Source of the DNA: Myxococcaceae bacterium
GTDB taxonomy: Bacteria > Myxococcota > Myxococcia > Myxococcales > Myxococcaceae
Length of the DNA stretch: 39,331 nucleotides
Assembly: GCA_016793095.1 (NCBI GenBank)
Contig: JAEUJQ010000075.1
Location: forward strand, 1 to 39,331
Direction: 5' to 3'
Shown: positions 5,472 to 26,368 of the stretch, in pieces
Position numbering within the stretch: position 1 is the first letter of the stretch
Layout: every line of letters begins with the position of its first letter
Notes under the pieces: generated by a model
Told to the model about the DNA's origin: nothing
Seen by the model: only the letters and a program-made list of their open reading frames with translations
The model's database searches: none
Made by a program: the position numbers and the translations under genes

Positions 5472-5517
5472 CCGGCCTCCGGCGTACATGCGCCCCTCTT
5501 CTCTGGGGGACCTCGAC

Positions 5518-7062
5518 ATGCGTCTCGGACTGGTTGCTGGACTCGTCGTGCTCGCGGGCTGTGCGCAGACGCCTCCGTCGAAGGAGGCCGTGGCGAAGCT
5601 GATGACCCGGCTGAGCTACCTCACGACGGACGCGGCCACGCGCGCCATCACGCCGCTCGACTACGTCACCACGGTGCGCTGCGACAGCGGGTCGGCCGAC
5701 CTCGCGATCAGCACGAGCGGCACCAACCCGCTCATGGTGACGAGCCGCCAGACGTTCAACCGGTGCACGACGGACAGCGAGACCGTCAGCGGTCAGTTGA
5801 CCTCGACCTGGACGACCTCGACCGACGCGAACACCTCCGAGGTGACGGTGACCCTCAACGGCATGCTCGCCTACGAGGGGCCGACCTATGCCGGGAACTT
5901 CAGCTTCAACGCGTTCCGGATCACCACCCGTGTGAAGCGCGAGAGCGACCGGATCACCATCACCTCGGAGGTCTCGGGAACCGTCAGCATCGGCGGCACC
6001 ACCTACTCGTACATGAACGAGTCGTACGTCGTCCCCATCGTCGTCGCCTCCGATGGCGGCACGGGCGGCGGCTCGGCGGGCGGCAGCGGTGGTGGTTCGG
6101 CGATGGGCGGCGGCTCCGCGGGCACCGGCACGACGATTCAGGGCGCTCGCGCCATCACCGACCTCGCGGCCTCGGGTGAGACGGTCTTCTTCACCGGCGA
6201 GACGGTCGCCAATCAGCCCGCCATCTTCTCGGCGAACGCGACCGCCACGCTCGCCACCGTCATCTGCACCGGCGCGGCGAACACCCGGCTCAGCGGCGTC
6301 GTCGTCGACGGCACGACCGTCTACGCGCTCTCGGACACCTCGACGGGCAGCATGCGCAAGCTCGTCAGGAGCAGCACCATGGGCATCGGCGCGGCCTGCA
6401 CCGAGGTGGCCACCGTCGACGCCCGCGGCTTCTTCCTGCTGGGCACCGCTGCGCTCGCGAAGGTGGGCGACCTGCTCGTCTACAAGGCACCGGACGGCTC
6501 ACTGAAGGGGTACTCCCTCACCTCGAACATGGAGACCGTCGTCGTGCAGCCCGGTAACAGCTTCTACGACACCATCCTCTCTGCTGGCGGCACAGGTGTC
6601 GTCGCGCAGGCGCAGAGCGGCGCCAACCCGCCCGACCTCAAGACGTTCACCGCGGCGGGCCTCGGCGACACGGTGGCGAGCTTCAGCAAGCCCGACTTCA
6701 CCACCGTCGGCTCCAGCATTCTCTGGGCGGTCGACGGCTCGCCCGGCGTGGCGTTCCGGTACCGGCAGGCCGCGAGCGGCTCCACGGTGTCGATGGGGGC
6801 GACGGCGAACCTGGGCGTCCCGGGGCGCGCCACCACCGGCTTCTGCGAGACCAACGACGGCGTCTCGGCGGGCGTCTTCGTCACGAAGTCCGCCGACAGC
6901 TTCGCCGGCTACTACACGGTGGGCCTCGACGCGGCGACGCCGCGCAAGGTGACGAGCCAGGCGTACGACGCGCCGGTGCACTGCGCGGTGACGCCGACGC
7001 GCCTGTGGGCCGTCGAAGGCGACCTGGGCGCGAGCCGCAACCTCGTGCGCTTCGAGCGCTGA
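5518..7062 (+). CDS. Predicted lipoprotein with Gly/Ser linker and repeat-rich C-terminal part
   Basis: 514 residues from ATG at 5518, with GGGGA about 8 bases upstream. An earlier in-frame ATG at 5488 lacks such a site. The signal MRLGLVAGLVVLAGC ends in a clear LAGC lipobox with the lipid cysteine at residue 15. The N-terminal 165 or so residues are Thr/Ser-rich and beta-like. A Gly/Ser linker (about residues 179-206) leads to a C-terminal half with repeated small hydrophobic strands that could form a beta-propeller. No family recognised. Its stop TGA directly abuts the stop of the kinase on the other strand. Similar linkers are common in myxobacterial surface proteins. Confidence 0.75.
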   Translation: MRLGLVAGLVVLAGCAQTPPSKEAVAKLMTRLSYLTTDAATRAITPLDYVTTVRCDSGSADLAISTSGTNPLMVTSRQTFNRCTTDSETVSGQLTSTWTTSTDANTSEVTVTLNGMLAYEGPTYAGNFSFNAFRITTRVKRESDRITITSEVSGTVSIGGTTYSYMNESYVVPIVVASDGGTGGGSAGGSGGGSAMGGGSAGTGTTIQGARAITDLAASGETVFFTGETVANQPAIFSANATATLATVICTGAANTRLSGVVVDGTTVYALSDTSTGSMRKLVRSSTMGIGAACTEVATVDARGFFLLGTAALAKVGDLLVYKAPDGSLKGYSLTSNMETVVVQPGNSFYDTILSAGGTGVVAQAQSGANPPDLKTFTAAGLGDTVASFSKPDFTTVGSSILWAVDGSPGVAFRYRQAASGSTVSMGATANLGVPGRATTGFCETNDGVSAGVFVTKSADSFAGYYTVGLDAATPRKVTSQAYDAPVHCAVTPTRLWAVEGDLGASRNLVRFER

Positions 7063-8670
7063 TCAGCGGACGGGCGCGGGAGACGTCTTCGTCTCGGCCT
7101 CGCGATCGGGCAGCGCCGGGGCCAGCGCGTGCGTGCCCGTCTGCGCGAGCGGCACCACCTGCGCCCACTCCCGGCGGCCCAGCTCGAGGGCGTTCAGCTC
7201 GCGCACGAGCGGCGCGATGGCGTCGAGCAGCTCCCGCGGCGCCTTCGTGCGCAGGGCGCGGTCGCGCTCGGTCAGCCTGGCGATCGCCTCGTCGAGGGCC
7301 GGTGGCGCGTCGGGGCGCAGCGCCGCGAGCCGGGGAATCGGCTGCTGCAGCGCCGCGGTCGCGAGCTCGACGTCGTTCGCTCCCTGGATGACGCGGCGCC
7401 CGCTCGCCACCTCGAGCAGCGACAGCCCGAGCGCGTAGAGATCGGTCTGCACGTCGAGCGCCTCGCCCTGCAGCTGCTCCGGCGCCGCGTAGACGAGCTT
7501 GCCCCGCATGACGCCCGTCTCGGTGATGCCGGGCTGGTTGCCCACCCGCGCGATGCCGAAGTCGGCCACCTTCACCTCGCCCGCGCGCGACAGCAGCACG
7601 TTGGGCGGGTTGAGATCGCGGTGCACCAGCCCCAGCGGCTGGCCGTCGGCGGCGCGCAGGCCGGCCACGGAGTCGAGCGCCGAGGCGATCTCGTGCGTCA
7701 GGTACACGAGCGCAGGCACGCTCGGCAGGCGGCCCCCGGCCACCAGCACCTTGAGCGCCTTCGACAGCGGCGCGCCGTCGACGTACTCCATCGCGAGGAA
7801 GTAGCGCTGCTCGTGCACGCCGAAGTCGTAGACCTGCACGATGTTGGGGTGCGCCAGCCGCGCGCCCACGCTCGCCTCGCGGCGGAAGAGGGTGAGCAGC
7901 TCCTCGTTTTCGGAGAACGCCGGCAGCATGCGCTTGAGCGCCACCTTCCGCTCGAAGCCGCCCTCCGGTGAGTAGGTCGCGAGGAACACCTCGGCCATGC
8001 CGCCCGCGCCGAGCCGCTCGCCCAGCACGTACTTGCCGAGCAGATCGGCCTGCCGCGACAGCCGCACGAGCGCGCGCACCTGGCCCACGACGATCCACGC
8101 GAGCGTCAAGGCGCCGAGCGAGCCGACGGTGACGCCGACGCGGATCGGCACCGGCACCTTCGTCACGTGGAGGATCGCCCACAGGAAGGCGGTGGTGGGC
8201 AGCGCGGTGGCGATCACGACGGTGCGCGAGAGGGCCAGCACCGACAGCAACGACAGCGCCATGAGGTAGGCGACGCTCGCCTGCGTGCCGAGGCCCGGCG
8301 TCAACGCGAGCGTGGCCTGCAGCAGCTCGGTGGTGCCGACGAGCGGCACGTCGACGACGGCGGGCGCGAAGGAGGCGAAGCGGCGGGCGCCGGGCCAGCG
8401 CGACACCACCGCGAGCACCAGCGCCGACATCACGAAGTACGCCGCCGCCCCCACGAGGCTCGGCGTGACCGACGAGTAGCCCATCTGCTCGGGGCTCTGG
8501 CCCCAGTCGGGCACGATCAGCACGAGGTTGAGCGCCGCCAGCCCGAAGCGCGCGCGGCTCACCGTCAACGTGAGCCGGTCCCGCTCCTCGCCGATGACGC
8601 GGTCGAGCAGGACGCTCGCCGCCGTTCGGGCTTTCGGACTTCCCCAGGTCACGAGCGACATTGCCCGCAT
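7063..8670 (-). CDS. Membrane Ser/Thr protein kinase, N-terminal membrane domain and C-terminal kinase domain
   Basis: 535 residues from ATG at 8670; a second ATG at 8661 is possible. About six membrane segments fill residues 40-200. A Hanks-type kinase domain follows (about 213-490): Gly loop LGAGGMAEV 220-228, ATP lysine K246 in VALKRM, helix-C glutamate E265, HRD 350-352, N357, DFG 370-372, APE 396-398. The residue after HRDL, usually Lys in HRDLKPEN, is Asn354 here (HRDLNPPN); some related kinases carry other residues at this spot. The domain order is the reverse of the common bacterial layout (kinase first, then membrane segment and sensor). Substrate unknown. It is divergent from the Cys-rich lipoprotein pair. 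Confidence 0.9.
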   Translation of the reverse strand: MRAMSLVTWGSPKARTAASVLLDRVIGEERDRLTLTVSRARFGLAALNLVLIVPDWGQSPEQMGYSSVTPSLVGAAAYFVMSALVLAVVSRWPGARRFASFAPAVVDVPLVGTTELLQATLALTPGLGTQASVAYLMALSLLSVLALSRTVVIATALPTTAFLWAILHVTKVPVPIRVGVTVGSLGALTLAWIVVGQVRALVRLSRQADLLGKYVLGERLGAGGMAEVFLATYSPEGGFERKVALKRMLPAFSENEELLTLFRREASVGARLAHPNIVQVYDFGVHEQRYFLAMEYVDGAPLSKALKVLVAGGRLPSVPALVYLTHEIASALDSVAGLRAADGQPLGLVHRDLNPPNVLLSRAGEVKVADFGIARVGNQPGITETGVMRGKLVYAAPEQLQGEALDVQTDLYALGLSLLEVASGRRVIQGANDVELATAALQQPIPRLAALRPDAPPALDEAIARLTERDRALRTKAPRELLDAIAPLVRELNALELGRREWAQVVPLAQTGTHALAPALPDREAETKTSPAPVR

Positions 8671-8751
8671 CTTCCCCGACAGCCGTCGCGCCCCTCCTCA
8701 GTTTCCCGAGGGGGCCGCGACGCAACGTGCCGCAACCCCACGACCGAGGGG

Positions 8752-8763
8752 TGGCCCGGGCCA
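8752..8763. promoter_or_regulatory. 12-base perfect palindrome in a divergent intergenic gap
   Basis: TGGCCCGGGCCA reads the same on both strands and lies 16 bases before the first Cys-rich lipoprotein start, in the 109-base gap to the kinase gene. It could be an operator for either gene. In DNA this G+C-rich, such palindromes are less rare than usual, so the call is tentative. Confidence 0.3.
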
Positions 8764-8779
8764 TGCTGTCTGGGAAGAC

Positions 8780-9094
8780 ATGCGCTCCCTCCTCTCACTC
8801 CTCCTGCTGGCGTCAGCGTGCGGCACTCCCACACTGGTCGAGACGGACTATGCGAAGAACTGCTCCGTCGATGCCGACTGCGTCGCCGTCTACATCGGTC
8901 CGCTCTGCCAGGTCTGCGGCGGCTGCGCGAACACCGCCATCAACGTCGCCGACAAGGCGAAGCGCGACGCCGACGCCGCCAGCGCCGCCAGGAGCTGCCC
9001 GCCCCGCTTCGGCCCCCAGCCGGCCTGTGCGCCTTGTCGTCAACCTGCGGCCGCCTGTACCAGCGGCACCTGCGTGCTGAAGGAGCTTCCGTGA
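8780..9094 (+). CDS. Cys-rich lipoprotein, first of a tandem pair
   Basis: 104 residues from ATG at 8780 (GGGAAG just upstream). A signal with an LASAC lipobox is followed by a small domain with ten cysteines besides the lipid cysteine. It contains NCSVDADC and a segment NTAINVADKAKRDADA, both echoed in the next gene. Even cysteine number suggests disulphides outside the cytoplasm. No family recognised. Its stop overlaps the GTG of the next gene (GTGA), so the two are translationally coupled. It is divergent from the kinase gene, with a 12-base palindrome in the gap. Confidence 0.75.
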   Translation: MRSLLSLLLLASACGTPTLVETDYAKNCSVDADCVAVYIGPLCQVCGGCANTAINVADKAKRDADAASAARSCPPRFGPQPACAPCRQPAAACTSGTCVLKELP

Positions 9095-9399
9095 GCTGGC
9101 CGGTGCGCCTCGCGGTCGTCCTCGCGGCGAGCTGCGGCCCCGTCGGGCTCCAGGCGTCGAACTACTCGCAGCAGTGCTCCGTCTCGTCCGATTGCACCGC
9201 CATCTTCTCGGGAGATCCATGCGGCTGCGCTTGCCCGAACGAGGCGATCAACGTCGCTGACAAGGCTCGCTACGACGCCGACGCGCGCGCAGCGACCGCG
9301 CGCTGTTCGCCGTTCAGGGCCCAATGCCTGGCCGACTGCATCAACCAGACCCCCGTGTGCCAGGCCGGCCGGTGCGTGCTGCAGCGCGCTTCCCAGTGA
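9091..9399 (+). CDS. Cys-rich lipoprotein, second of a tandem pair
   Basis: 102 residues from GTG at 9091, with AAGGAG at 9080-9085 inside the end of the preceding gene. The signal ends in LAASC. The mature part again has ten cysteines and shares QCSVSSDC and NEAINVADKARYDADA with its neighbour, so the two are paralogues from a tandem duplication. They differ in the middle (GDPCGCACP here against LCQVCGGC there) and in the C-terminal spacing. Function unknown; extracytoplasmic and probably disulphide-bonded by inference. Confidence 0.75.
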   Translation: MSWPVRLAVVLAASCGPVGLQASNYSQQCSVSSDCTAIFSGDPCGCACPNEAINVADKARYDADARAATARCSPFRAQCLADCINQTPVCQAGRCVLQRASQ

Positions 9400-9444
9400 G
9401 AACGGGTTGATGGCACGGCCTCGTCTGGTGATAACAGGCCTCCC

Positions 9445-10599
9445 ATGACGGTCTGGTCCATCGCGCTGACCCTCTCCCTCGCGCAGGGCGCCCCTCCCGC
9501 GCCGAACGCCGACGAGCTCATCAAGAAGATCGACGCCACCGCCGGGCTCAAGGGCAGCGAGAAGCCCTTCGAGATCGCCGCGTCCCTGGTGCGCTTGTAC
9601 TTCAGCCAGGGCCGCACGAAGGACGCGCAGGTCTACGCCCGCGAAGCCCTCGCCGCGGCTCAGCCGGCGCTCACCTTCTACGTCGATCAGAAGAAGAAGC
9701 TCGGCGGGAAGAAGCCGGCGGCGGCCGACCAGGCGAAGTGCGACCCCGACAAGAAGGACGCGAACCTCGTGAACGTGCTCGAGGTGGCGAAGAGGCACGC
9801 GGCCCAGGGCAAGACCCCCGAGGCGGTCGCCTGCGCCCGGAAGGCCGTCACCGCGGTGCCCGACGTGATGATGATGGACGGCCACGCCAGCTTCCTCGCG
9901 CGCGACTACGCCGCCGCCCGGGCCTCGTACGAGCGCGTGCTGGCCACCTTCGACGACGTGCCCGACGCCCTCTACGCCCGCGGCGCGCTCACGGTGGACG
10001 AGAAGCCCGACGACGTGAAGGCCCTCGAGACCGCGAAGAAGGACCTCGAGCAGTTCCTCTCCGCGGCCCCCTCGTCCCGCCACGGTCGCGGCGCGAAGGC
10101 CCTGCTCGAGCGCACCACTGCGGGCATCCAGGCGGGCGGCCTGTCGAAGCTCGTCCCCAGCCCCGTGCAGGTCCCCCTGCCACCGATGATGCAGCAGCAG
10201 CCGTCAGGGCCGCCGCAGCTCGACCAGGCCACCATCGCCGCCTTCCAGAACGCCCCGCAGAACGCCGAGACCGACGCCCGCTTCGCGAAGCTCATCGAGG
10301 ACTCGGAGGACGCGCTCGCGAAAGGCCGCTACCAGGACGCCCTCGCCGGCTTCAAGCAGGTGATGCCGTACCAGCCCTCGAACCCGCGCCTGCGGGCCGG
10401 CATGGCGTGGACGCTCGTGCGCCTCGGCAAGCCCATGGCACAGCAGGTCTGGGGCGTCGCCATCGAGAACCCCGCTGCCGTCGATGCGCTGGGCGATCGC
10501 CTCAAGGCGCTCGGCGATGCCGAGGGCGCCAAAGCACTCTGGACCCGGCTGGCCGAGTCAGCGCCGGGCTATGCTCCGAAGCTGGAAGGAAAACGATGA
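9445..10599 (+). CDS. Secreted TPR-like helical repeat protein
   Basis: 384 residues. The short N-terminal hydrophobic stretch (MTVWSIALTLSLAQG) looks like a cleavable signal. Most of the rest is helical with TPR-like units, such as VRLYFSQGRTKDAQVYAREAL, FLARDYAAARASYERVL and ALAKGRYQDALAGFKQVMP. A Pro/Gln-rich spacer (around residues 237-255) separates the two helical parts. TPR proteins usually serve as protein-binding scaffolds; the partner here is not known. Its stop overlaps the ATG of the next gene, so it is coupled to the HYDIN-type lipoprotein. Confidence 0.78.
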   Translation: MTVWSIALTLSLAQGAPPAPNADELIKKIDATAGLKGSEKPFEIAASLVRLYFSQGRTKDAQVYAREALAAAQPALTFYVDQKKKLGGKKPAAADQAKCDPDKKDANLVNVLEVAKRHAAQGKTPEAVACARKAVTAVPDVMMMDGHASFLARDYAAARASYERVLATFDDVPDALYARGALTVDEKPDDVKALETAKKDLEQFLSAAPSSRHGRGAKALLERTTAGIQAGGLSKLVPSPVQVPLPPMMQQQPSGPPQLDQATIAAFQNAPQNAETDARFAKLIEDSEDALAKGRYQDALAGFKQVMPYQPSNPRLRAGMAWTLVRLGKPMAQQVWGVAIENPAAVDALGDRLKALGDAEGAKALWTRLAESAPGYAPKLEGKR

Positions 10600-13294: not shown

Positions 13295-14197
13295 GTGGCG
13301 GGAGACACCAAAGAGATCCTCAAGTCGCTGGCGGTGAACGTCACCATCGCCGTCTGCAAGGGCGTCGCGGCGTTCTTCACCGGCTCGGGAGCGATGCTCG
13401 CCGAGGCCATTCACTCAAGCGCTGACTGCATCAACCAGGTGCTGCTGCTGGTCGGCGTGTCGCTCGCGAAGAAGCCGCCCGACGAGAAGTACCCCCTCGG
13501 TTATGGGCGCTCGGTGTACTTCTGGAGCTTCATCGTCGCGCTGCTCCTCTTCTCGGGCGGCGGCGTGTTCTCGGTCTACGAGGGCGTGCACAAGCTCTCG
13601 CACCCCGAGCCGGTGGATCACGTCGGCTGGGGCTTCGGCATCCTCGGCTTCTCCATGCTGCTCGAAGGCTGGGCGACGTGGGGCAACCTGGTGGAGATGA
13701 AGAAGCGTCGCGGGGAGGTGGGGCTGCTCCAGTACCTGCGCGACACCAAGGACTCGGACCTCGTGGTGCTCTTCGGAGAGAACTCGGCGGCGGTGCTTGG
13801 CCTCGCGCTGGCGATCGCGTCGCTCGCGCTCGCGGTGGTGACCGGCGACCCGCGCTGGGACGGGGTGGGCTCGCTGCTCATCGGCCTGGTGCTGATCGCG
13901 GTGGCCATCTTCCTCGGCCGCGAGGTGATGTCGCTGCTCCTCGGCGAGCGCGCCGATCCGCAGATCGAGCGCACCGTCGAAGAGGTCGCGAAGACGCAGC
14001 CTCGCATCAAGCGCCTCATCCGGGTGCTCAGCATCCAGCAGGGGCCCGGCGAGGTGATGGTCGCCTGCAAGGTGCACCTCGTGGACGGCCTCGACACCGC
14101 GGGGGTCGTGGACGCGATCGACACCTTCGAGAAAGCGATCCACGAGCGCGTCGATGACATTCGCTGGCTCTTCGTCGAGCCTGACGACGACGATTGA
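13295..14197 (+). CDS. Cation diffusion facilitator transporter
   Basis: 300 residues from GTG at 13295; a GTG at 13256 would add 13 residues, and neither has a clear ribosome-binding site, so the start is uncertain. The membrane domain has the TM2 metal motif HxxxD (H40, D44 in AEAIHSSADCIN), TM5 GENSAAVLG, and about six membrane segments, then a cytoplasmic C-terminal domain (about 215-295). The family exports Zn2+, Mn2+, Fe2+ or Co2+ by proton antiport. The TM5 motif ENSAA instead of HxxxD places it near the ZnT9-like group, whose transported ion is less certain. Metal specificity unknown. Confidence 0.9.
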   Translation: MAGDTKEILKSLAVNVTIAVCKGVAAFFTGSGAMLAEAIHSSADCINQVLLLVGVSLAKKPPDEKYPLGYGRSVYFWSFIVALLLFSGGGVFSVYEGVHKLSHPEPVDHVGWGFGILGFSMLLEGWATWGNLVEMKKRRGEVGLLQYLRDTKDSDLVVLFGENSAAVLGLALAIASLALAVVTGDPRWDGVGSLLIGLVLIAVAIFLGREVMSLLLGERADPQIERTVEEVAKTQPRIKRLIRVLSIQQGPGEVMVACKVHLVDGLDTAGVVDAIDTFEKAIHERVDDIRWLFVEPDDDD

Positions 14198-14257
14198 CGG
14201 GCCGGCCGGCGCACTCGGTGCTAGCGGAAACCGCCGTCATGGGGAACCATACGGGCG

Positions 14258-16246
14258 ATGCGCAGGCCCGGAGCGTTCTCGAAAGCTTTGATTTCAACGC
14301 TCATCGCGTCGCTCGGCGCTGGTCCGGCCTCGGCGCGACCGCTGCTCCTGCCCGAGCAGGTCTCAGCTGCGTCCGCGGGGCCGCGCCTCGTCGTCGTCAT
14401 CGTTCCCCTCGACGCGCCCTCGAGGGCGACGCAGGGGCTCCTCGAGCTCGTCGCGGAAGACGTGGCCAGATCGAGCGCCCGCTTCGAGGTGGTGCCGGCG
14501 ATCGACGCGTTCGATTCGAAGGCGGCCGCCGAGCGGGTGACCAGGGCCGAGAGCGCCCGCGCGCGAATGGTGGAGGGACAGAAGGCCCTCGACGATCTCG
14601 ACACCGCGAAAGGCGTCGAGCTCTTCGGTGAGGCGACGCGGCTGTTCAAGGAGACCGACACCAGCCGCACCTTCAGCGAGCTCGTGAAGGCCTGGGGCAT
14701 GAAAGCCGCCAGCCACGCGCTGGGTGGAGAGAGCGCCCCGGCGAAGCAGGAGATCGAGCGCATCGTCGCGATGGAGCCGAAGGCCGAGTTCAACGCCCAG
14801 TTCTTCCCGCCCGAGCTGCTCAAGTTCGTCGAGCAACAGCGCAAGCTGGCCAACGCAGCCAAGGGAGAGCTCACCGTTCGCACCGAGCCGCCTGGCGCGA
14901 ACATCTGGGTGAACGGCCAGCCGCAGGGCCGGAGCCCGGTGACGGTGAAGGGGTTGCTCGGCAGCCGGCATCAGGTCGTCGCGGCGCTGGGCGGCTCGCA
15001 GCTCACCCTGGCCGAGCTGCCTCCGGGCGAGACCCTGCTCGAGCTGAAGCCGGCAGAGCATCAGGCAGCCCTCGCGAAGGCGATCGAGGCGGTGACGAAG
15101 GGCCCGAGGTCACCGGGCCGCGACAAGGCCCTGCTGGCGCTCGGGAAGACCCTCGAGGCCGAGCAGCTGCTGGCGATTCTGGTGAAGAAGAGCACCGCCG
15201 GCGAGCAGTCCGAGCTCACAGCGCTGCGCCTGGAGACCCGCGACGGCCACAACGCGGCGTACGGCACCACGACGCTGCCGCTGGGAGAGGTGTCGGACGG
15301 CCTCAAGAGCTTCCTCGACGGCCTGCTGACGAAGGACACGCCGCGCCAGGGCAAGGCCATCGTCACGCACTTCGACGGTGAGGGCGGGGGTGGCTCCGGG
15401 AAGCTGGTCGTAGGCATCGCGCTGCTCGGCGGGGCGGCGGCGCTGCTCGCCGGCGGCATCACCGCGGGCGCCATCGGTCAGGACCGCTACGCCCTGTTCC
15501 GCGCGACGCCGCAGGTGCAGACGACGATCTCCCAGGCCTACGCCAACGAGGCGCGCGCGCTCGGTGGCGCGTCGCTGGGCATGCTCATCGGCGCGGGGGT
15601 CGCAGCGGGAGTCGGCACCTTCCTCGTGGCCACCTCCGGCAGTGGTTCGGCTGACGCAGCCGAGGCGCCGGAGCCGAAGAAGCCCACGAAGAAGAAGGCC
15701 GAGCCGAAGCGCCTCGAACCGAAGAAGTCGGAGCCCGAGCCGAAGAAGACCGCGCCCGAGCCGAAGAAGGTGGAGCCGGAGCCCGAGCCGAAGAAGACCG
15801 AGCCCGAGCCGGCGAGGGTCGACCCGAAGGAGGAGAAGCGCCGGAAGGACGAGGAGGCGCGCCTCAAGAAGGAAGAGGAGGCCCGGCTCAAGAGAGAAGA
15901 GGAGCAGCGCGCCCGCGACGAGGCCGAAGCAAAGAAGAAGGCCGAGGCCGAGGAGAAGAAGCGCAAGGAGGAGGAGAAGCGCGCCGAGGAGGAGCGCAAG
16001 AAGCAGGAGGCGGCCGACAAGAAGGGCGGCAAGAAGGCCGAAGAGGCGCGGAAGAAGGAAGAAGAGGCGCGCAGGAAAGCCGAGGCCGAGGCCGCCTCGA
16101 AGGCCGAAGAGGAGCGCAAGAAGAAGGAGGCGGAGGAGCTGAAGAAGAAGGAAGACGAAGAGAAGAAGCGCCGCCTGGAGGAAGAGAAGAAGAAGGCGGA
16201 AGAGAAGAAGAAGGCCGAAGACCACGACGACCTGCGGAACTTCTGA
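14258..16246 (+). CDS. PEGA-domain protein with long charged C-terminal helix
   Basis: 662 residues. A signal sequence (1-26) precedes a helical region (90-200). A PEGA domain follows (about 204-240: ELTVRTEPPGANIWVNGQ, then SPVTVKGLLG), a fold linked to surface or S-layer-like proteins. Two hydrophobic segments (382-407 and 434-458) form a hairpin. The last 190 residues are of extreme composition: EPKK/EPEP repeats (470-520), then an almost unbroken Lys/Glu/Ala/Arg run (523-655), likely a single alpha helix. The gene is intact, with codon use similar to its neighbours. Function unknown; a structural role across the envelope is possible. Confidence 0.8.
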   Translation: MRRPGAFSKALISTLIASLGAGPASARPLLLPEQVSAASAGPRLVVVIVPLDAPSRATQGLLELVAEDVARSSARFEVVPAIDAFDSKAAAERVTRAESARARMVEGQKALDDLDTAKGVELFGEATRLFKETDTSRTFSELVKAWGMKAASHALGGESAPAKQEIERIVAMEPKAEFNAQFFPPELLKFVEQQRKLANAAKGELTVRTEPPGANIWVNGQPQGRSPVTVKGLLGSRHQVVAALGGSQLTLAELPPGETLLELKPAEHQAALAKAIEAVTKGPRSPGRDKALLALGKTLEAEQLLAILVKKSTAGEQSELTALRLETRDGHNAAYGTTTLPLGEVSDGLKSFLDGLLTKDTPRQGKAIVTHFDGEGGGGSGKLVVGIALLGGAAALLAGGITAGAIGQDRYALFRATPQVQTTISQAYANEARALGGASLGMLIGAGVAAGVGTFLVATSGSGSADAAEAPEPKKPTKKKAEPKRLEPKKSEPEPKKTAPEPKKVEPEPEPKKTEPEPARVDPKEEKRRKDEEARLKKEEEARLKREEEQRARDEAEAKKKAEAEEKKRKEEEKRAEEERKKQEAADKKGGKKAEEARKKEEEARRKAEAEAASKAEEERKKKEAEELKKKEDEEKKRRLEEEKKKAEEKKKAEDHDDLRNF

Positions 16247-16417
16247 CGCTCTCGAAGCAGCAGCGAGGCGGGCCAGCCGCGGCCGGTGGAAAAATCGACA
16301 TCCCGACACAGCCCTGTAGCGTGTCCGCCGCGCGATCCCCTCAGGGGTGCCGGTTGGCACTCCGGCTGCTCTCTCGAAGGGAGCGCCCACGCAGGCGCGG
16401 CACGGAGGCCACAGCAG

Positions 16418-17395
16418 ATGGACAAGCGAATCGGCGTACTGATGGGCGGGTGGGGTGAGGAGAAGGACGTCTCGATGCGGACCGGCGAGGCCATCGCCCA
16501 GGCCCTCGAGGCGAACGGCCACCAGGTGGCCCGCCTGTTCGCCAGCAACGGGCTCGACAGCACCGTGCGCGAGGCCGGCATCGACGTCGCCTTCCTCGCG
16601 CTCCACGGCCGCATGGGCGAAGACGGCCGGGTGCAGGGCCTGCTCGAGGTGATGGGCATTCCCTACACGGGCTCGGGCGTGCTCGGCTCGGCGCTGGCGA
16701 TGAACAAGGGCTTCGCGAAGAAGCTGTTCCGCCAGCACAACCTCGCGACGCCGACCGGCTACGTGGTGCCGGCCTCGCGCCTGCAGGACGTGCCCTCGCT
16801 GCACGCCGACCTCGGCTTTCCCTGCGTGGTGAAGCCCGCCAACAGCGGCTCCTCGGTGGGCCTCACCCTCGTGCACACCCGCGAGCAGCTCGAGCCCGCC
16901 ATCGCCCTGGCCTGCCGCTTCGGTGGTGAGGCCCTCGTCGAGCGCTACGTGAAGGGCAGGGAGCTCACCGTCGCGATCCTCGACGACGAGGTGCTGGGCT
17001 CGTGCGAGGTGAGCCACGACGGCTCGCTCTTCGACACCGGCACCAAGTACGAGGGCGGCGCGAAGTACCACCTGCCGCCGAGGCTGACGGCCACCCGGCT
17101 CGCGAACATCGAGCAGATGGCGCTCACGGCGGCGCGCTCGCTCGGCTGCCGCGGCGCGGTGCGGGTGGACTTCATCGTGCCTGAGGTGGGCAACGAGGTG
17201 GTGCTCGAGGTGAACACCCTGCCCGGCATGACGCGGGCCAGCCTGTTCCCGAAGATCGCGAAGGCCGCCGGGCTGTCGTTCGAGACCCTGGTCGAGCGCA
17301 TCCTCGAGGGCGCTACCCTCGACGGGGCGCAGCCGGTCGAGCCTCTCACGGATTCCCCGGAGATCGCGGCGGAGCCCATCGCCCACGCGAGCTGA
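16418..17395 (+). CDS. ddl: D-alanine--D-alanine ligase
   Basis: 325 residues. It joins two D-alanines with ATP for the peptidoglycan stem peptide. ATG at 16418 has GGAGG at 16404-16408. ATP-grasp features are in order: RIGVLMGGWGEEKDVSMRTG, LALHGRMGEDG, FPCVVKPANSGSSVGLT, ALVERYVKGRELTVAIL, and the metal-binding VDFI...EVNTLPGMT. Length is close to that of E. coli DdlB (306). It is cytoplasmic. The 171 bases before the start hold no other gene. Confidence 0.95.
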   Translation: MDKRIGVLMGGWGEEKDVSMRTGEAIAQALEANGHQVARLFASNGLDSTVREAGIDVAFLALHGRMGEDGRVQGLLEVMGIPYTGSGVLGSALAMNKGFAKKLFRQHNLATPTGYVVPASRLQDVPSLHADLGFPCVVKPANSGSSVGLTLVHTREQLEPAIALACRFGGEALVERYVKGRELTVAILDDEVLGSCEVSHDGSLFDTGTKYEGGAKYHLPPRLTATRLANIEQMALTAARSLGCRGAVRVDFIVPEVGNEVVLEVNTLPGMTRASLFPKIAKAAGLSFETLVERILEGATLDGAQPVEPLTDSPEIAAEPIAHAS

Positions 17396-17476
17396 GCCCC
17401 GGGCCGTGCACAGGCCGGAGGGGCCCTGCATCCCCTCTCTTGAAGTCCTACCGCCTTCACGGCCTACGATACGACC

Positions 17477-18091
17477 ATGCTCACGACCGCCTTCCTCTCC
17501 TTTGCCCTCGCCGCCGAGCCCATTCGCCTCTCGCCAGGGACGCAGCACATCTTGAAGGTGCCCGGCATCACGAAGGTCGCGGTCGGCCAGGAGTCCGTCG
17601 CCGACATCCGCCCCACCGGCAAGGGCGAGCTGCTGATCACCGCCAACCAGGTGGGCCGCACGTCTCTCACCATCTGGACCGGCTCGGGCATGCAGACGCG
17701 CATGATCGTGGTGGACGATGGCAGCACCAGCGAGATCGGCCGCATGGTGAAGACCCTGGTGAACCCCACCCTCAAGATCGAGAGCTACAACGGCGTCACC
17801 GTCATCGACGGGAAGCTCGACTCCATGGACGAGCTGCGGCGCCTCAACCAGCTCGTCGGCAACGACGCGAACGTGAAGATCCTCGCCACCGTGGACCCGC
17901 GGGTGATGCCGGCCGTCGCCGAGAACATCTCGGCGGCCTTCAAGAAGCAGGGCCTCGTGAACGCCCACGCGGTCTCCTACGGCGGGAAGATCGTGCTCGA
18001 GGGATCGGTGGCTGACGAGAAGGAGCTGCAGAAGGCGCTCATGATCGCGAACACGTACGCCGCTGCCGTCACCCCCGCCTTCGGGCGCTGA
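17477..18091 (+). CDS. Pilus/secretin N-terminal-type protein with BON-like units, no secretin domain
   Basis: 204 residues with a signal (1-13, FLSFALAAE). Residues 15-80 (PIRLSPGTQHILKVPG, VAVGQESVADIRPTG, ELLITANQVGRTSLTIW) match the N-terminal domain of CpaC/RcpA-type pilus secretins. Two BON-like units follow (NGVTVIDGKLDSMDEL and GGKIVLEGSVADEKEL). The protein stops there, without the secretin domain that would form the outer-membrane channel. No other pilus gene lies nearby. It may be a stand-alone accessory or a relic adopted for another role. Confidence 0.8.
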   Translation: MLTTAFLSFALAAEPIRLSPGTQHILKVPGITKVAVGQESVADIRPTGKGELLITANQVGRTSLTIWTGSGMQTRMIVVDDGSTSEIGRMVKTLVNPTLKIESYNGVTVIDGKLDSMDELRRLNQLVGNDANVKILATVDPRVMPAVAENISAAFKKQGLVNAHAVSYGGKIVLEGSVADEKELQKALMIANTYAAAVTPAFGR

Positions 18092-23579: not shown

Positions 23580-24134
23580 TCACCGGAAGAACAGGGACAC
23601 GAGCCCGGCCATCGGGAAGGGCAGCGTCACCAGGATCGTCGCGGCGGCCCAGAAGAACCCCGACTTGCGCCGCGCGAACCACTCACGCTCCTGCTGCGCG
23701 ACGGCGGCGGCGTGGGCGTCGAGGCCGCGGGTCTCGGTCCCCACCGGCGCCGGCCAGAGCGCGCTGATCGCCCCGCAACGAGGGCACTCCGGGTGTGCGA
23801 AGCCACGCACGGCCGACATCACGCTCACGGTCGCGCCGACGAAGCAGAAGAAGAAGGTGAGCACGAGCATGGCGTTGCGGTCGCTCCTGGTCGGTGGTCC
23901 GACCCGCTCGAAGCGCGGGCCCAGGTAGTCGCACGACTCGCAGACCATCCACGACGCGCGGTTCAGCGCGTTGGCGCGTCGCTCCTCGCGCTCCTCCGCC
24001 GTGCGCCGGGGCCGGCAGGCAAGGCAGCGGTCCTCCGTCCCATGCAACGTGCAGGCGTCGCACATGAAGACGCCGCAGCGCTTGCAGGTGCCGACGGCGG
24101 CGACGCCTTCGTGCGTGGCGCAGGTCGCGGTCAC
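23580..24134 (-). CDS. B-box-like zinc-finger membrane protein
   Basis: 184 residues from GTG at 24134, with GGAG 7 bases upstream. An earlier upstream extension lacks a ribosome-binding site. The N-terminus has a B-box-type pattern (C5, H8, C17, C20, C25, C28, H31, C37, C40). Two more CxxC pairs follow (C65/C68 and C117/C120), with two membrane segments at about 88-108 and 158-182. Proteins of this kind are common in myxobacteria and their function is not known. It is divergent from the sigma factor gene. Confidence 0.78.
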   Translation of the reverse strand: MTATCATHEGVAAVGTCKRCGVFMCDACTLHGTEDRCLACRPRRTAEEREERRANALNRASWMVCESCDYLGPRFERVGPPTRSDRNAMLVLTFFFCFVGATVSVMSAVRGFAHPECPRCGAISALWPAPVGTETRGLDAHAAAVAQQEREWFARRKSGFFWAAATILVTLPFPMAGLVSLFFR

Positions 24135-24250
24135 CGCGCGACTCCAGCGAGGCTGTGGAGGGTGGTCAAGCCCGTCCGAACGAGCGAGCCGCCGGCCTCG
24201 GCCGTCACCCACCATGGCGAAAACCGGCCGATGCGCTATTTGACGGAGCC

Positions 24251-25390
24251 ATGGCGGCGCGGCGCAAGAAGACGGAGAAGCCCGGTGCGAAGCCGGTGGA
24301 GGTCGTCGACGCCGAGCTCGTCGAAGACGCTCCGAAGCCTGCGCCGAAGCGCACCCGCACCGCCGAGATCGTGGTCGACGCGAAGCCGGTGAAGGAGGGC
24401 GAGGTCGAAGACACCGACGCCGCCGCCGAGCCGGCCGAGCCCGAGCTGGGCGAGCCCGACGTGAAGGAGCTCGAGGCCGAGGTCGTCGATGAGACCGCGC
24501 TGGCGCCGACCGTCTCGCGCACGCGGCTGGCGAAGGGCGACCCGCTCTCGGCGTACATGGCCGAGGTGACGCGGCACCCGCTGCTCACCCGCGAGCAGGA
24601 GGTCGAGCTCTCGCGGCGCTACCGCGACACCGGCGACGTGCGCGCGGCGTACACGCTGGTGGCCTCCAACCTGCGCCTCGTCGTGAAGCTCGCGCACGAG
24701 TACCACCGCAACCCGCTCTCGCTGCTCGATCTCATCCAGGAGGGGAACATCGGCCTCATGCAGGCCGTGAAGAAGTTCGACCCGGAGCGCGGCGTGAAGC
24801 TCGCGAGCTACGCCGCCTGGTGGATCCGCGCGTACATCCTTCGCTACATCATGGACAACTGGAAGATGGTGAAGCTGGGCACGACGGAGGCCCAGCGGAA
24901 GCTCTTCTTCAAGCTGCGCCAGGAGCAGGAGCGCCTCGCCAAGCAGGGCGTCGAGGTGACGCCGAAGCTGCTCGCCGAGCGCCTCAACGTCACCGAGCAG
25001 GACGTGGTGGAGATGGACCAGCGCCTCGGCAACGACGAGGTCAGCATCGACGCGCCGCTGAACGTGGACGACGATCGCGAGAGCCGCGCCGAGCGCCTGC
25101 TGCCCGCCACCGCCGCGTCGGCCGACGAGTCGCTCGCGAACGCCGAGCTGCGCGCGATGTTCAAGGAGAAGCTCGGCGACTTCGCGAAGAACCTGAACGA
25201 GAAGGAGCGCTTCATCTTCGAGAAGCGCCTCATCGCCGACGAGCCGATGACGCTCCAGGACATCGGCACGCAGTACGGGGTGTCACGTGAGCGGGCCAGG
25301 CAGATCGAGGCCGCGCTGATCACCCGCATGCGCAAGTACATGCAGGAGCACATCCCCGACTTCAACCTGCTCGAGAGCGAGGGCGAGTAG
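24251..25390 (+). CDS. RNA polymerase sigma factor, RpoH (sigma-32) family
   Basis: 379 residues from ATG at 24251, with GGAG only two bases upstream. Residues 1-95 form an acidic, Lys/Pro/Glu-rich extension with three VVD-type repeats. Then come region 2 (about 98-205: LVASNLRLVVKLAHEY, LDLIQEGNIGLMQAV, FDPERGVKLASYAAWWIRAYI), the RpoH box QRKLFFKLR (215-223) and region 4 with the helix-turn-helix at about 334-353 (TLQDIGTQYGVSRERARQIE). Myxobacteria use several RpoH-like factors (for example SigB and SigC in Myxococcus xanthus, linked to development); which one this corresponds to is not certain. The typical RpoH lacks the N-terminal extension. Confidence 0.93.
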   Translation: MAARRKKTEKPGAKPVEVVDAELVEDAPKPAPKRTRTAEIVVDAKPVKEGEVEDTDAAAEPAEPELGEPDVKELEAEVVDETALAPTVSRTRLAKGDPLSAYMAEVTRHPLLTREQEVELSRRYRDTGDVRAAYTLVASNLRLVVKLAHEYHRNPLSLLDLIQEGNIGLMQAVKKFDPERGVKLASYAAWWIRAYILRYIMDNWKMVKLGTTEAQRKLFFKLRQEQERLAKQGVEVTPKLLAERLNVTEQDVVEMDQRLGNDEVSIDAPLNVDDDRESRAERLLPATAASADESLANAELRAMFKEKLGDFAKNLNEKERFIFEKRLIADEPMTLQDIGTQYGVSRERARQIEAALITRMRKYMQEHIPDFNLLESEGE

Positions 25391-25690
25391 GTTAAGCGTG
25401 TACTGCGCGCTACAACGACGTTGATGCGCGTTGCTCGAAAGGAACACCCGCTGTCGATGCGCCTGCTGGCGAGTGACGTCCGCTCGGCAGGGTCAGAGCC
25501 CTGGAATTCTGGCGGCTTCTCGTCGGTGATGAAGCTGTAGAGGCTCCCGTCACCCGCAGATGGAACGAGAAGGGCGTCGAGGCCGGCGCACCGGGTCACC
25601 ATGATCGGGTGCGAGTCGACGCGCCCGCCGAGAACTCAGCTCAGCAGGCAGCGACCAGCAGCACCAGCCAGAGGTGACGCGGCACGCCCA
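25391..25690 (-). pseudogene. Possible decayed lipoprotein gene
   Basis: This 330-base gap between the sigma factor and the M50 gene has no intact gene. On the minus strand, ATG at 25690 opens a lipoprotein-type signal (MGVPRHLWLVLLVAAC) that hits a TGA directly after the cysteine. In another frame, from about 25650 to 25470, there is a protein-like stretch (SHPIMVTRCAG, LDALLVPSAGDGSLYSF, ITDEKPPEF). A frameshift joining the two would restore a small lipoprotein. This is a reading by eye and could be chance. Confidence 0.35.
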
Positions 25691-25720
25691 TGGGCCGGGA
25701 AGTCTACTCGCAGCTGGCGC

Positions 25721-26368
25721 TCAGCGCCCGACGATGGCGCGCACCAGGTCGATCAGCAGCCCGCGCACGAACGCCTGTGGCCCGGCGAGCAGTCCGCCGC
25801 CCAGCACGAGCACGCCCATGAGCACGAGGGGCGAGAAGCGCTTGAACGTCTCCCACTGATCCCGCAGCCGGTACGGCACGAAGCGCTCCACCACGCGTGA
25901 GCCGTCGAGCGGGTAGATGGGCAGCAGGTTGAAGAGCGCGAGCGCCACGTTGAGCTGCAGCCCCGACAGCAGGAGCAGGAAGAAGGGCGAGCTCGACGAC
26001 GCCTGGCCCTCGGCCCGGATCAGGACGCCCAGCCCGACCGCGCAGAGGATCGCCAGCACCAGGTTCGACAGCGGGCCCGCGAACGCCGTGATCGCCATGC
26101 CGGTGCTCATGTTCACGTCACGGCGGAACCGCGCCGGGTTGACTGGCACCGGCTTCGCCCACCCGAACGGCACGCCGAGCAGCGGCAGCAACAGCGTACC
26201 CACCGGGTCGATGTGCACGAGGGGGTTGAGCGTCAGCCGGCCTTCGCGCAGCGCCGTGTCGTCGCCCAGCTTCCAGGCGCTGAACGCGTGCGCCCACTCG
26301 TGCACGGTGAGCGAGAGGATCATCGGCACGAGGAACAGGATTCTCTGGACGAAGTCGATGTTCCCCAC
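25721..26368 (-). CDS. Site-2-type zinc metalloprotease (M50 family)
   Basis: 215 residues, mostly hydrophobic, from GTG at 26368 with GGAG 8 bases upstream. The zinc motif HEWAH (H23, E24, H27) lies in the first membrane segment. The conserved GPLSNL and the second motif NLLPIYPLDGS, which supplies the third zinc ligand, are present. It is the short form without a PDZ domain, typical of the rhomboid-free YdbA-like S2P-type group. It cuts membrane proteins within the bilayer; substrate unknown. It is divergent from the lipase gene. Confidence 0.9.
   Translation of the reverse strand: MGNIDFVQRILFLVPMILSLTVHEWAHAFSAWKLGDDTALREGRLTLNPLVHIDPVGTLLLPLLGVPFGWAKPVPVNPARFRRDVNMSTGMAITAFAGPLSNLVLAILCAVGLGVLIRAEGQASSSSPFFLLLLSGLQLNVALALFNLLPIYPLDGSRVVERFVPYRLRDQWETFKRFSPLVLMGVLVLGGGLLAGPQAFVRGLLIDLVRAIVGR

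Follow-up and report, generated by a model that had tools for sequence, protein, structure and literature searches.

The window analysed here, a stretch of 39,331 nucleotides from a Myxococcaceae bacterium, carries two short genes, A and B, arranged head to tail on the + strand with a 4-base overlap that reads GTGA (Table 1). Each product consists of a lipid-cysteine signal peptide followed by a domain of ~75-80 residues that contains ten cysteines. An earlier note on this DNA had described an overlapping pair of short lipoproteins with ten cysteines beyond the lipid cysteine, and the open reading frames and their translations bear this out. Both products contain the CSVxxDC and (E/T)AINVADKA(K/R)xDADA elements named in that note, and as it said they differ in the middle cysteine cluster, which reads CQVCGGC in A compared to CGCAC in B. 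The two proteins are homologous, with 46% identity and an E-value of 6.6e-14 in a search of their own genome.

Table 1. Features of the A/B locus, with positions counted from the first nucleotide of the window.
Feature	Position	Strand	Basis or remark
Inferred variable island, from the dapA-dapB-folK-like block to the TPR gene	5488..9399	.	content varies among relatives
Membrane Ser/Thr kinase	7063..8670	-	neighbour not conserved in the genus
Upstream conserved promoter block CTCAGTTTCCCG, possible activator site	8697..8708	+	upstream alignment of 10 genus family genes; composite pattern
Second conserved promoter block CAA....CGCAAC	8723..8736	+	upstream alignment
Sigma-54-like -24/-12 element TGGCCCG-N4-ATGCT (GG-N10-GC), 12 nt 5' of the gene A ATG	8752..8767	+	
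Gene A: predicted outer-membrane lipoprotein, 104 aa, ATG start	8780..9094	+	lipid Cys14 plus ten cysteines
Gene B Shine-Dalgarno AAGGAG, within gene A, 5 nt 5' of the GTG	9080..9085	+	sequence
Gene B: predicted lipoprotein, 102 aa, GTG start	9091..9399	+	lipid Cys15 plus ten cysteines
Weak sigma-70-like element TTGATG-N17-GATAAC before the TPR gene	9407..9435	+	3' edge of the variable stretch
TPR-repeat protein, conserved neighbour	9445..10599	+	signal peptide by eye; matched in 89/96 genomes of the bacterial family

Random draws with the codon-position composition of gene A gave a mean of 3.0 cysteines per 104 codons, and a count of 11 was reached in 1 of 2000 draws. The third-position GC content of the A and B frames was 0.86-0.87. 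Values of dN/dS among orthologues of A and B ranged from ~0.2 to 0.6, indicating that both are real, constrained genes. The signal peptide of gene B is short: it failed a strict lipobox pattern of the PROSITE PS51257 type and passed the relaxed form. The strict pattern was passed by 17 of 21 signal peptides of the family.

The A/B family is uncatalogued in Pfam-A and NCBIfam. Profile scans at the curated cut-offs returned no match for A or B in either collection, and none of the other members scanned (some against Pfam only) reached a cut-off; the best stray matches of single members had E-values of 0.024 (Pfam) and 0.035 (NCBIfam). Yet the domain recurs across genomes: a single-sequence search with B gave relatives in 11 of 60, counting the genome of the window itself. 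With a family profile, at least 25 of the 96 genomes searched in the bacterial family gave a match, and with a wider core profile at least 39 of 145 in the order and at least 45 of 195 in the phylum Myxococcota did so. The genome sets of these searches overlap, and all the numbers are minima because only part of the first-look candidates is scored. An iterated search of fetched loci (E 0.001) yielded 84 distinct domain sequences in Myxococcota, drawn from those loci and not from every genome, and including a few fragments or doubtful rows (L049, L051, L088, L149). Excerpts of the literature on cysteine-rich myxobacterial lipoproteins, conserved-cysteine families of Myxococcota, exchange lipoproteins and sigma-54 promoters contained no description of the family. 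The view that the pair belongs to an undescribed small disulphide-rich family is thus upheld as to size, cysteine content and absence from Pfam-A and NCBIfam, but with 84 sequences the family is wider than two lipoproteins.

The domain also occurs in tandem within single proteins, as in L136, which has two scored copies and a third recognised by eye. In the window's own genome, a - strand open reading frame on contig C14 (L139) likewise has two scored tandem copies, plus a degenerate third by eye. At L143 (1415-3316), the fusion partner of one distant relative is a long C-terminal region, by eye C39-type peptidase-like, for which Pfam gave no match at E 0.5; none of four multi-domain relatives, this one among them, yielded a Pfam domain. 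Phage and plasmid collections searched with A, and the plasmid collection searched with one distant member, returned no matches, and another member gave two weak RepB/ParB matches (E 0.1). A genome-contig scan with a single family protein found at least one locus, from a MAG titled Archangium.

Alignment of the regions upstream of ten family genes of the genus revealed three conserved blocks, CTCAG.TTcC.G, CAA....CG..A and gCTGGCCCG-N4-rTGCT, the last mostly 12 nt before the ATG. Mean pairwise identity (seven genes) was ~0.60 around the second block compared to 0.28 further upstream. The third block was exact in 6 of the 10 aligned genes, and one letter off in 2 (G001 and the first copy of G006); G002_C396 has it in weaker form, and in G004_C533 none was seen. 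Beyond the alignment, it precedes a B-type gene of G002, again one letter off, and it was absent upstream of G006_C181, G004_C15 and G000_C51. The second genes of the window (B) and of G006 directly follow their first gene.

Taken alone, the -24/-12 block was found at 45 sites in seven genomes, 6 of them at family starts, compared to 53 sites for the reversed control; the element by itself is therefore no commoner than expected from the control. The composite pattern gave 11 sites in the seven genus genomes, compared to 2 for its control, and 8 of the 11 precede family genes; among these are genes at other loci, namely a paralogue and the B-type gene. This count is partly circular, since 7 of the 8 family sites came from the alignment that suggested the pattern; the eighth, before the B-type gene of G002, lay outside the alignment, but its upstream stretch had already been printed. 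In 12 genomes of other genera the composite pattern gave 9 sites (control 2), none of them at a family gene, and within the genus it gave no site at five family genes that are more distantly related (G005:C25, G003:C291, G006:C290, G001:C416 and G004:C587).

The gene A element has the GG-N10-GC core of the M. xanthus sigma-54 consensus, TGGCACG-N4-TTGC(T/A), with two mismatches (consensus as given in excerpts of PMC9765219). Like M. xanthus sigma-54 promoters in excerpts of PMC9765219 and PMC7910581, it combines GG-N10-GC with TGGC and TGCT cores and conserved upstream blocks; unlike them, its predicted leader is very short and the composite pattern stands mostly before this one family. An Nla28-type repeat was not recognised by eye. 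The two further conserved blocks, and the two positions at which the window's element leaves the consensus, might instead belong to an ECF- or activator-type promoter whose blocks merely resemble GG-N10-GC. We regard this as unlikely, albeit worth serious consideration: 8 of the 10 aligned genes keep both invariant dinucleotides at their exact distance, G002_C396 comes in addition with a weaker form, and promoters among those listed for M. xanthus in PMC9765219 deviate from the consensus equally, for example mrpB with TGGCCCA-N4-CTGCT. Judged from these sequence comparisons, sigma-54 control would be the better account of A.

In each of the 7 genomes of the window's genus, the same TPR gene has a family gene immediately on its 5' side, and a DUF1573/ASH-domain gene comes after it. 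This constant order, along with the export or lipoprotein signals that the products carry by eye, could mean that A and B are small structural subunits of an envelope complex formed with the TPR and DUF1573/ASH-domain proteins. We find this distinctly unlikely. The TPR gene has a match in 89 of the 96 bacterial-family genomes, yet in G007, G021, G023, G066 and G068 the best family gene is on a different contig from it, and the stretches examined around those five genes contain no TPR match (for G068, this covers ~0.2 kb on the 3' side only). Moreover, a promoter-like element separates B from the TPR start, and the same element weakens the idea of an operon that includes the TPR gene. Identity between two close genomes resumes just 5' of this sigma-70-like element, and similar letters are found in G006; a scan with a stricter sigma-70 consensus found no site. 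In those genomes where the match to the TPR protein fell into two pieces, identity was 49-56% in the C-terminal part (~residues 250-379) and 32-40% in the N-terminal part.

The pair had also been described as lying next to a membrane kinase on the other strand. The kinase is real, but the neighbourhood is not conserved: a kinase match occurs within ~6 kb of a family gene in 2 of 7 genus genomes (the window and G003), and G005 has a gene that by eye is transporter-like in its place. Of 8 stretches from outside the genus, 3 contained a kinase match: G008 and G023, both from other genera, with 37-38% identity at a distance of ~1.4 kb, and G113 (~3 kb). These matches speak for a tie, but kinases are abundant and could yield such neighbours by chance. 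With the kinase a neighbour in just 2 of 7 genus genomes, a functional tie to it is weak. Its PADLOC PD-T4-6 matches were set aside; they fall on the kinase domain. The protein has several hydrophobic segments followed by a C-terminal kinase domain, an order that is the reverse of the usual PknB layout.

A second family copy follows the first in 3 of 7 genus genomes (the window, G005 and G006). In the tree, the first-slot genes, those immediately 5' of the TPR gene, form no single supported clade. Window B groups with the second copy of G006 and with a G002 gene on another contig (support 99/99), apart from A; this G002 gene sits away from any TPR match, and the second copy of G005 falls outside the B clade on a long branch. 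Since B clusters with B-type genes of two other species and not with A, the duplication is not recent. Where the earlier note had left a choice between a recent and a maintained duplication, the first half must be given up, while the retention of a second copy in some relatives agrees with the other. Copies of the family gene may decay too: in the second copy of G005 the signal-peptide stretch is not preceded by an ATG, GTG or TTG, and the first copy of G006 has CTG where others have ATG. The last cysteine spacing is also altered in the G005 copy.

We compared silent divergence of A with that of its surroundings in the close pair G003/G005. The dS of A was 0.77, compared to 0.16-0.23 in eight nearby genes, and 4-fold sites differed at 18 of 46 positions in A compared to 245 of 1398 across those eight (p 6.6e-4). 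Between two close genomes, DNA similarity ends near the end of the folK-like gene, is 79% over the A promoter and gene, and is restored just ahead of the TPR gene. The names dapA/dapB/folK for the block that borders the variable island are presumed, being based on gene order rather than on a family scan. The excess silent divergence of A in the closest genome pair suggests that alleles have been exchanged or paralogues swapped; allele replacement by recombination and the loss of alternate tandem copies would both fit. The dN/dS of A between G003 and G005 was 0.20, and thus gives no sign of diversifying selection on residues.

Cysteine co-variation was assessed in 80 of the 84 rows, the other 4 being left out for a missing end cysteine. 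C1, C2, C9 and C10 are universal in these rows by selection of intact ends, while C4 was present in 52, C5 in 70 and C8 in 74. C5 and C8 were both lost in 5 rows and both kept in 69, with C5 alone lost in 5 and C8 alone in 1 (p 6e-5). This was the strongest joint loss among the cysteine pairs tested, and under a 50% identity ceiling it gave p 0.0014 (43 rows). Some points speak against a C5-C8 pair: C5-C7, C6-C7, C3-C7 and C5-C6 likewise reached p <0.02, one of the five double losses is L051, a poor row without five cysteines, and five rows lost C5 only, although three of these have, by eye, an adjacent double cysteine that might substitute. All 28 rows without C4 carry a cysteine 8-28 residues ahead of C1. 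The first filter for such a cysteine also flagged 17 of the 52 C4-bearing rows, by eye mostly through signal-peptide cysteines; a stricter filter against these found the upstream cysteine in 27 of 28 C4-less rows compared to 4 of 52 C4-bearing rows (p 5e-16), and at the 50% identity ceiling in 13 of 14 compared to 4 of 29 (p 8e-7).

That a cysteine shifts position while the total is kept even points to disulphides, and the co-variation as a whole favours disulphides over a metal site. It would pair the cysteines of the A/B domain and gives a disulphide map that can be tested. The CxxC and CxC spacings of the middle cluster could be read as the site of a metallothionein- or copper-chaperone-like metal-binding lipoprotein, with CQVCGGC or CGCAC as the ligand cluster, but we hold this to be very improbable: variation is greatest at the middle cysteines (C4 in 52 of 80 rows, C5 in 70 of 80), loss of C4 is paired with an upstream cysteine as for a shifted disulphide partner, and His/Met richness was not seen by eye. 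Metallothionein-like proteins hold metal in a reduced-cysteine metal-thiolate cluster; in the A/B family the co-variation, at the level of sequence, speaks for disulphides.

For mature B together with three relatives, the best of five structure models had a mean pLDDT of 74.1 and a pTM of 0.61, built on four sequences, with the remaining four models scoring 38-60. This model predicts strands at 16-20 and 31-35, a helix at 36-50, a short helix and a terminal hairpin at 67-80. The fold is tentative, because the run with A as query reached a pLDDT of only 52.8 and in Foldseek comparison of the B model with PDB and viral models the 2 PDB and 17 viral matches had E-values of 3.5 at best. VIA-align of the B model with 12 chains gave no Z >=2, and two family profiles searched against PDB sequences found no solved relative (best E 0.86 and 1.2).

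The mature A and B proteins have neither Lys at +2 nor Ala at +7, a combination that in M. xanthus is predictive of the outer membrane according to excerpts of PMC3222651; an outer-membrane site would follow for both. Some relatives in the family have Asp or Arg at +2.

Our preferred reading, to which we assign a probability of roughly 0.4, is that A and B are outer-membrane lipoproteins with a five-disulphide binding domain, expressed from a sigma-54-like promoter, at a locus that diversifies by whole copies. The composite sigma-54-like promoter would drive A, and translation of B would be coupled to that of A. Each would display one compact domain comprising two strands, a helix and a two-stranded hairpin, held by five disulphides. 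At the cell surface or within the matrix, the domain would act in binding, as a receptor, an inhibitor or an adhesin-like module; both this role and a binding partner are what we infer. The locus would diversify by exchange or birth/death of whole copies, not by rapid point change. This analysis adds the evidence for disulphides, an age for the duplication, the variability of the locus and the promoter that family genes share. That promoter and the exchanged alleles make the unnamed lipoprotein a candidate system for surface recognition or inhibition in bacteria that are predatory and social.

A bolder version of this preferred reading seems to us rather improbable. It supposes a private, genus-specific regulon of exchangeable surface lipoproteins, in which all promoter-gene cassettes share one sigma-54-like switch, the position beside the TPR gene is a fixed dock where cassettes replace one another, cassettes are also placed elsewhere in the genome, and the five-disulphide domain constitutes the strain's recognition or protection type.

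Very doubtful, too, is that A and B are kin-discrimination cargo, polymorphic lipoproteins transferred by outer-membrane exchange as toxin-like or recognition factors with a SitA-like logic: a predicted outer-membrane lipoprotein, a variable locus and swapped alleles would suit it, and SitA toxins are described in excerpts of PMC5562445 as outer-membrane lipoproteins of myxobacteria, but Pfam and NCBIfam scans recognised no toxin domain and what follows A is its homologue B rather than a recognised immunity gene. Like the SitA proteins of those excerpts, A and B are predicted outer-membrane lipoproteins of a myxobacterium and are polymorphic among relatives (PMC5562445). A type II signal with predicted outer-membrane sorting, as in SitA, is present in A, and in B by the relaxed lipobox only. 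Unlike SitA, they have a cysteine-packed mature domain of ~90 aa with no C-terminal toxin domain in the Pfam and NCBIfam scans, and A is followed by B and then by the TPR gene.

The Kazal, WAP and TIL inhibitors are small, secreted, disulphide-rich domains that occur singly or as tandem repeats. In general terms, the A/B family resembles them in being short, rich in cysteines, and single or tandem; unlike them, it matched nothing in Pfam or NCBIfam, and no PDB sequence was related to it at a useful E-value.

Two further observations concern gene surroundings and base composition. In another genus, g16 (L106, L108 and L109), the family gene is not near the TPR gene but in the vicinity of long genes that the loci share: a 500-aa one at all three and a 547-aa one at two. 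Across the window, AT skew ranges from ~-0.21 to 0.35, with peaks of 0.35 at 14001-18000 and 0.22 at 24001-26000.
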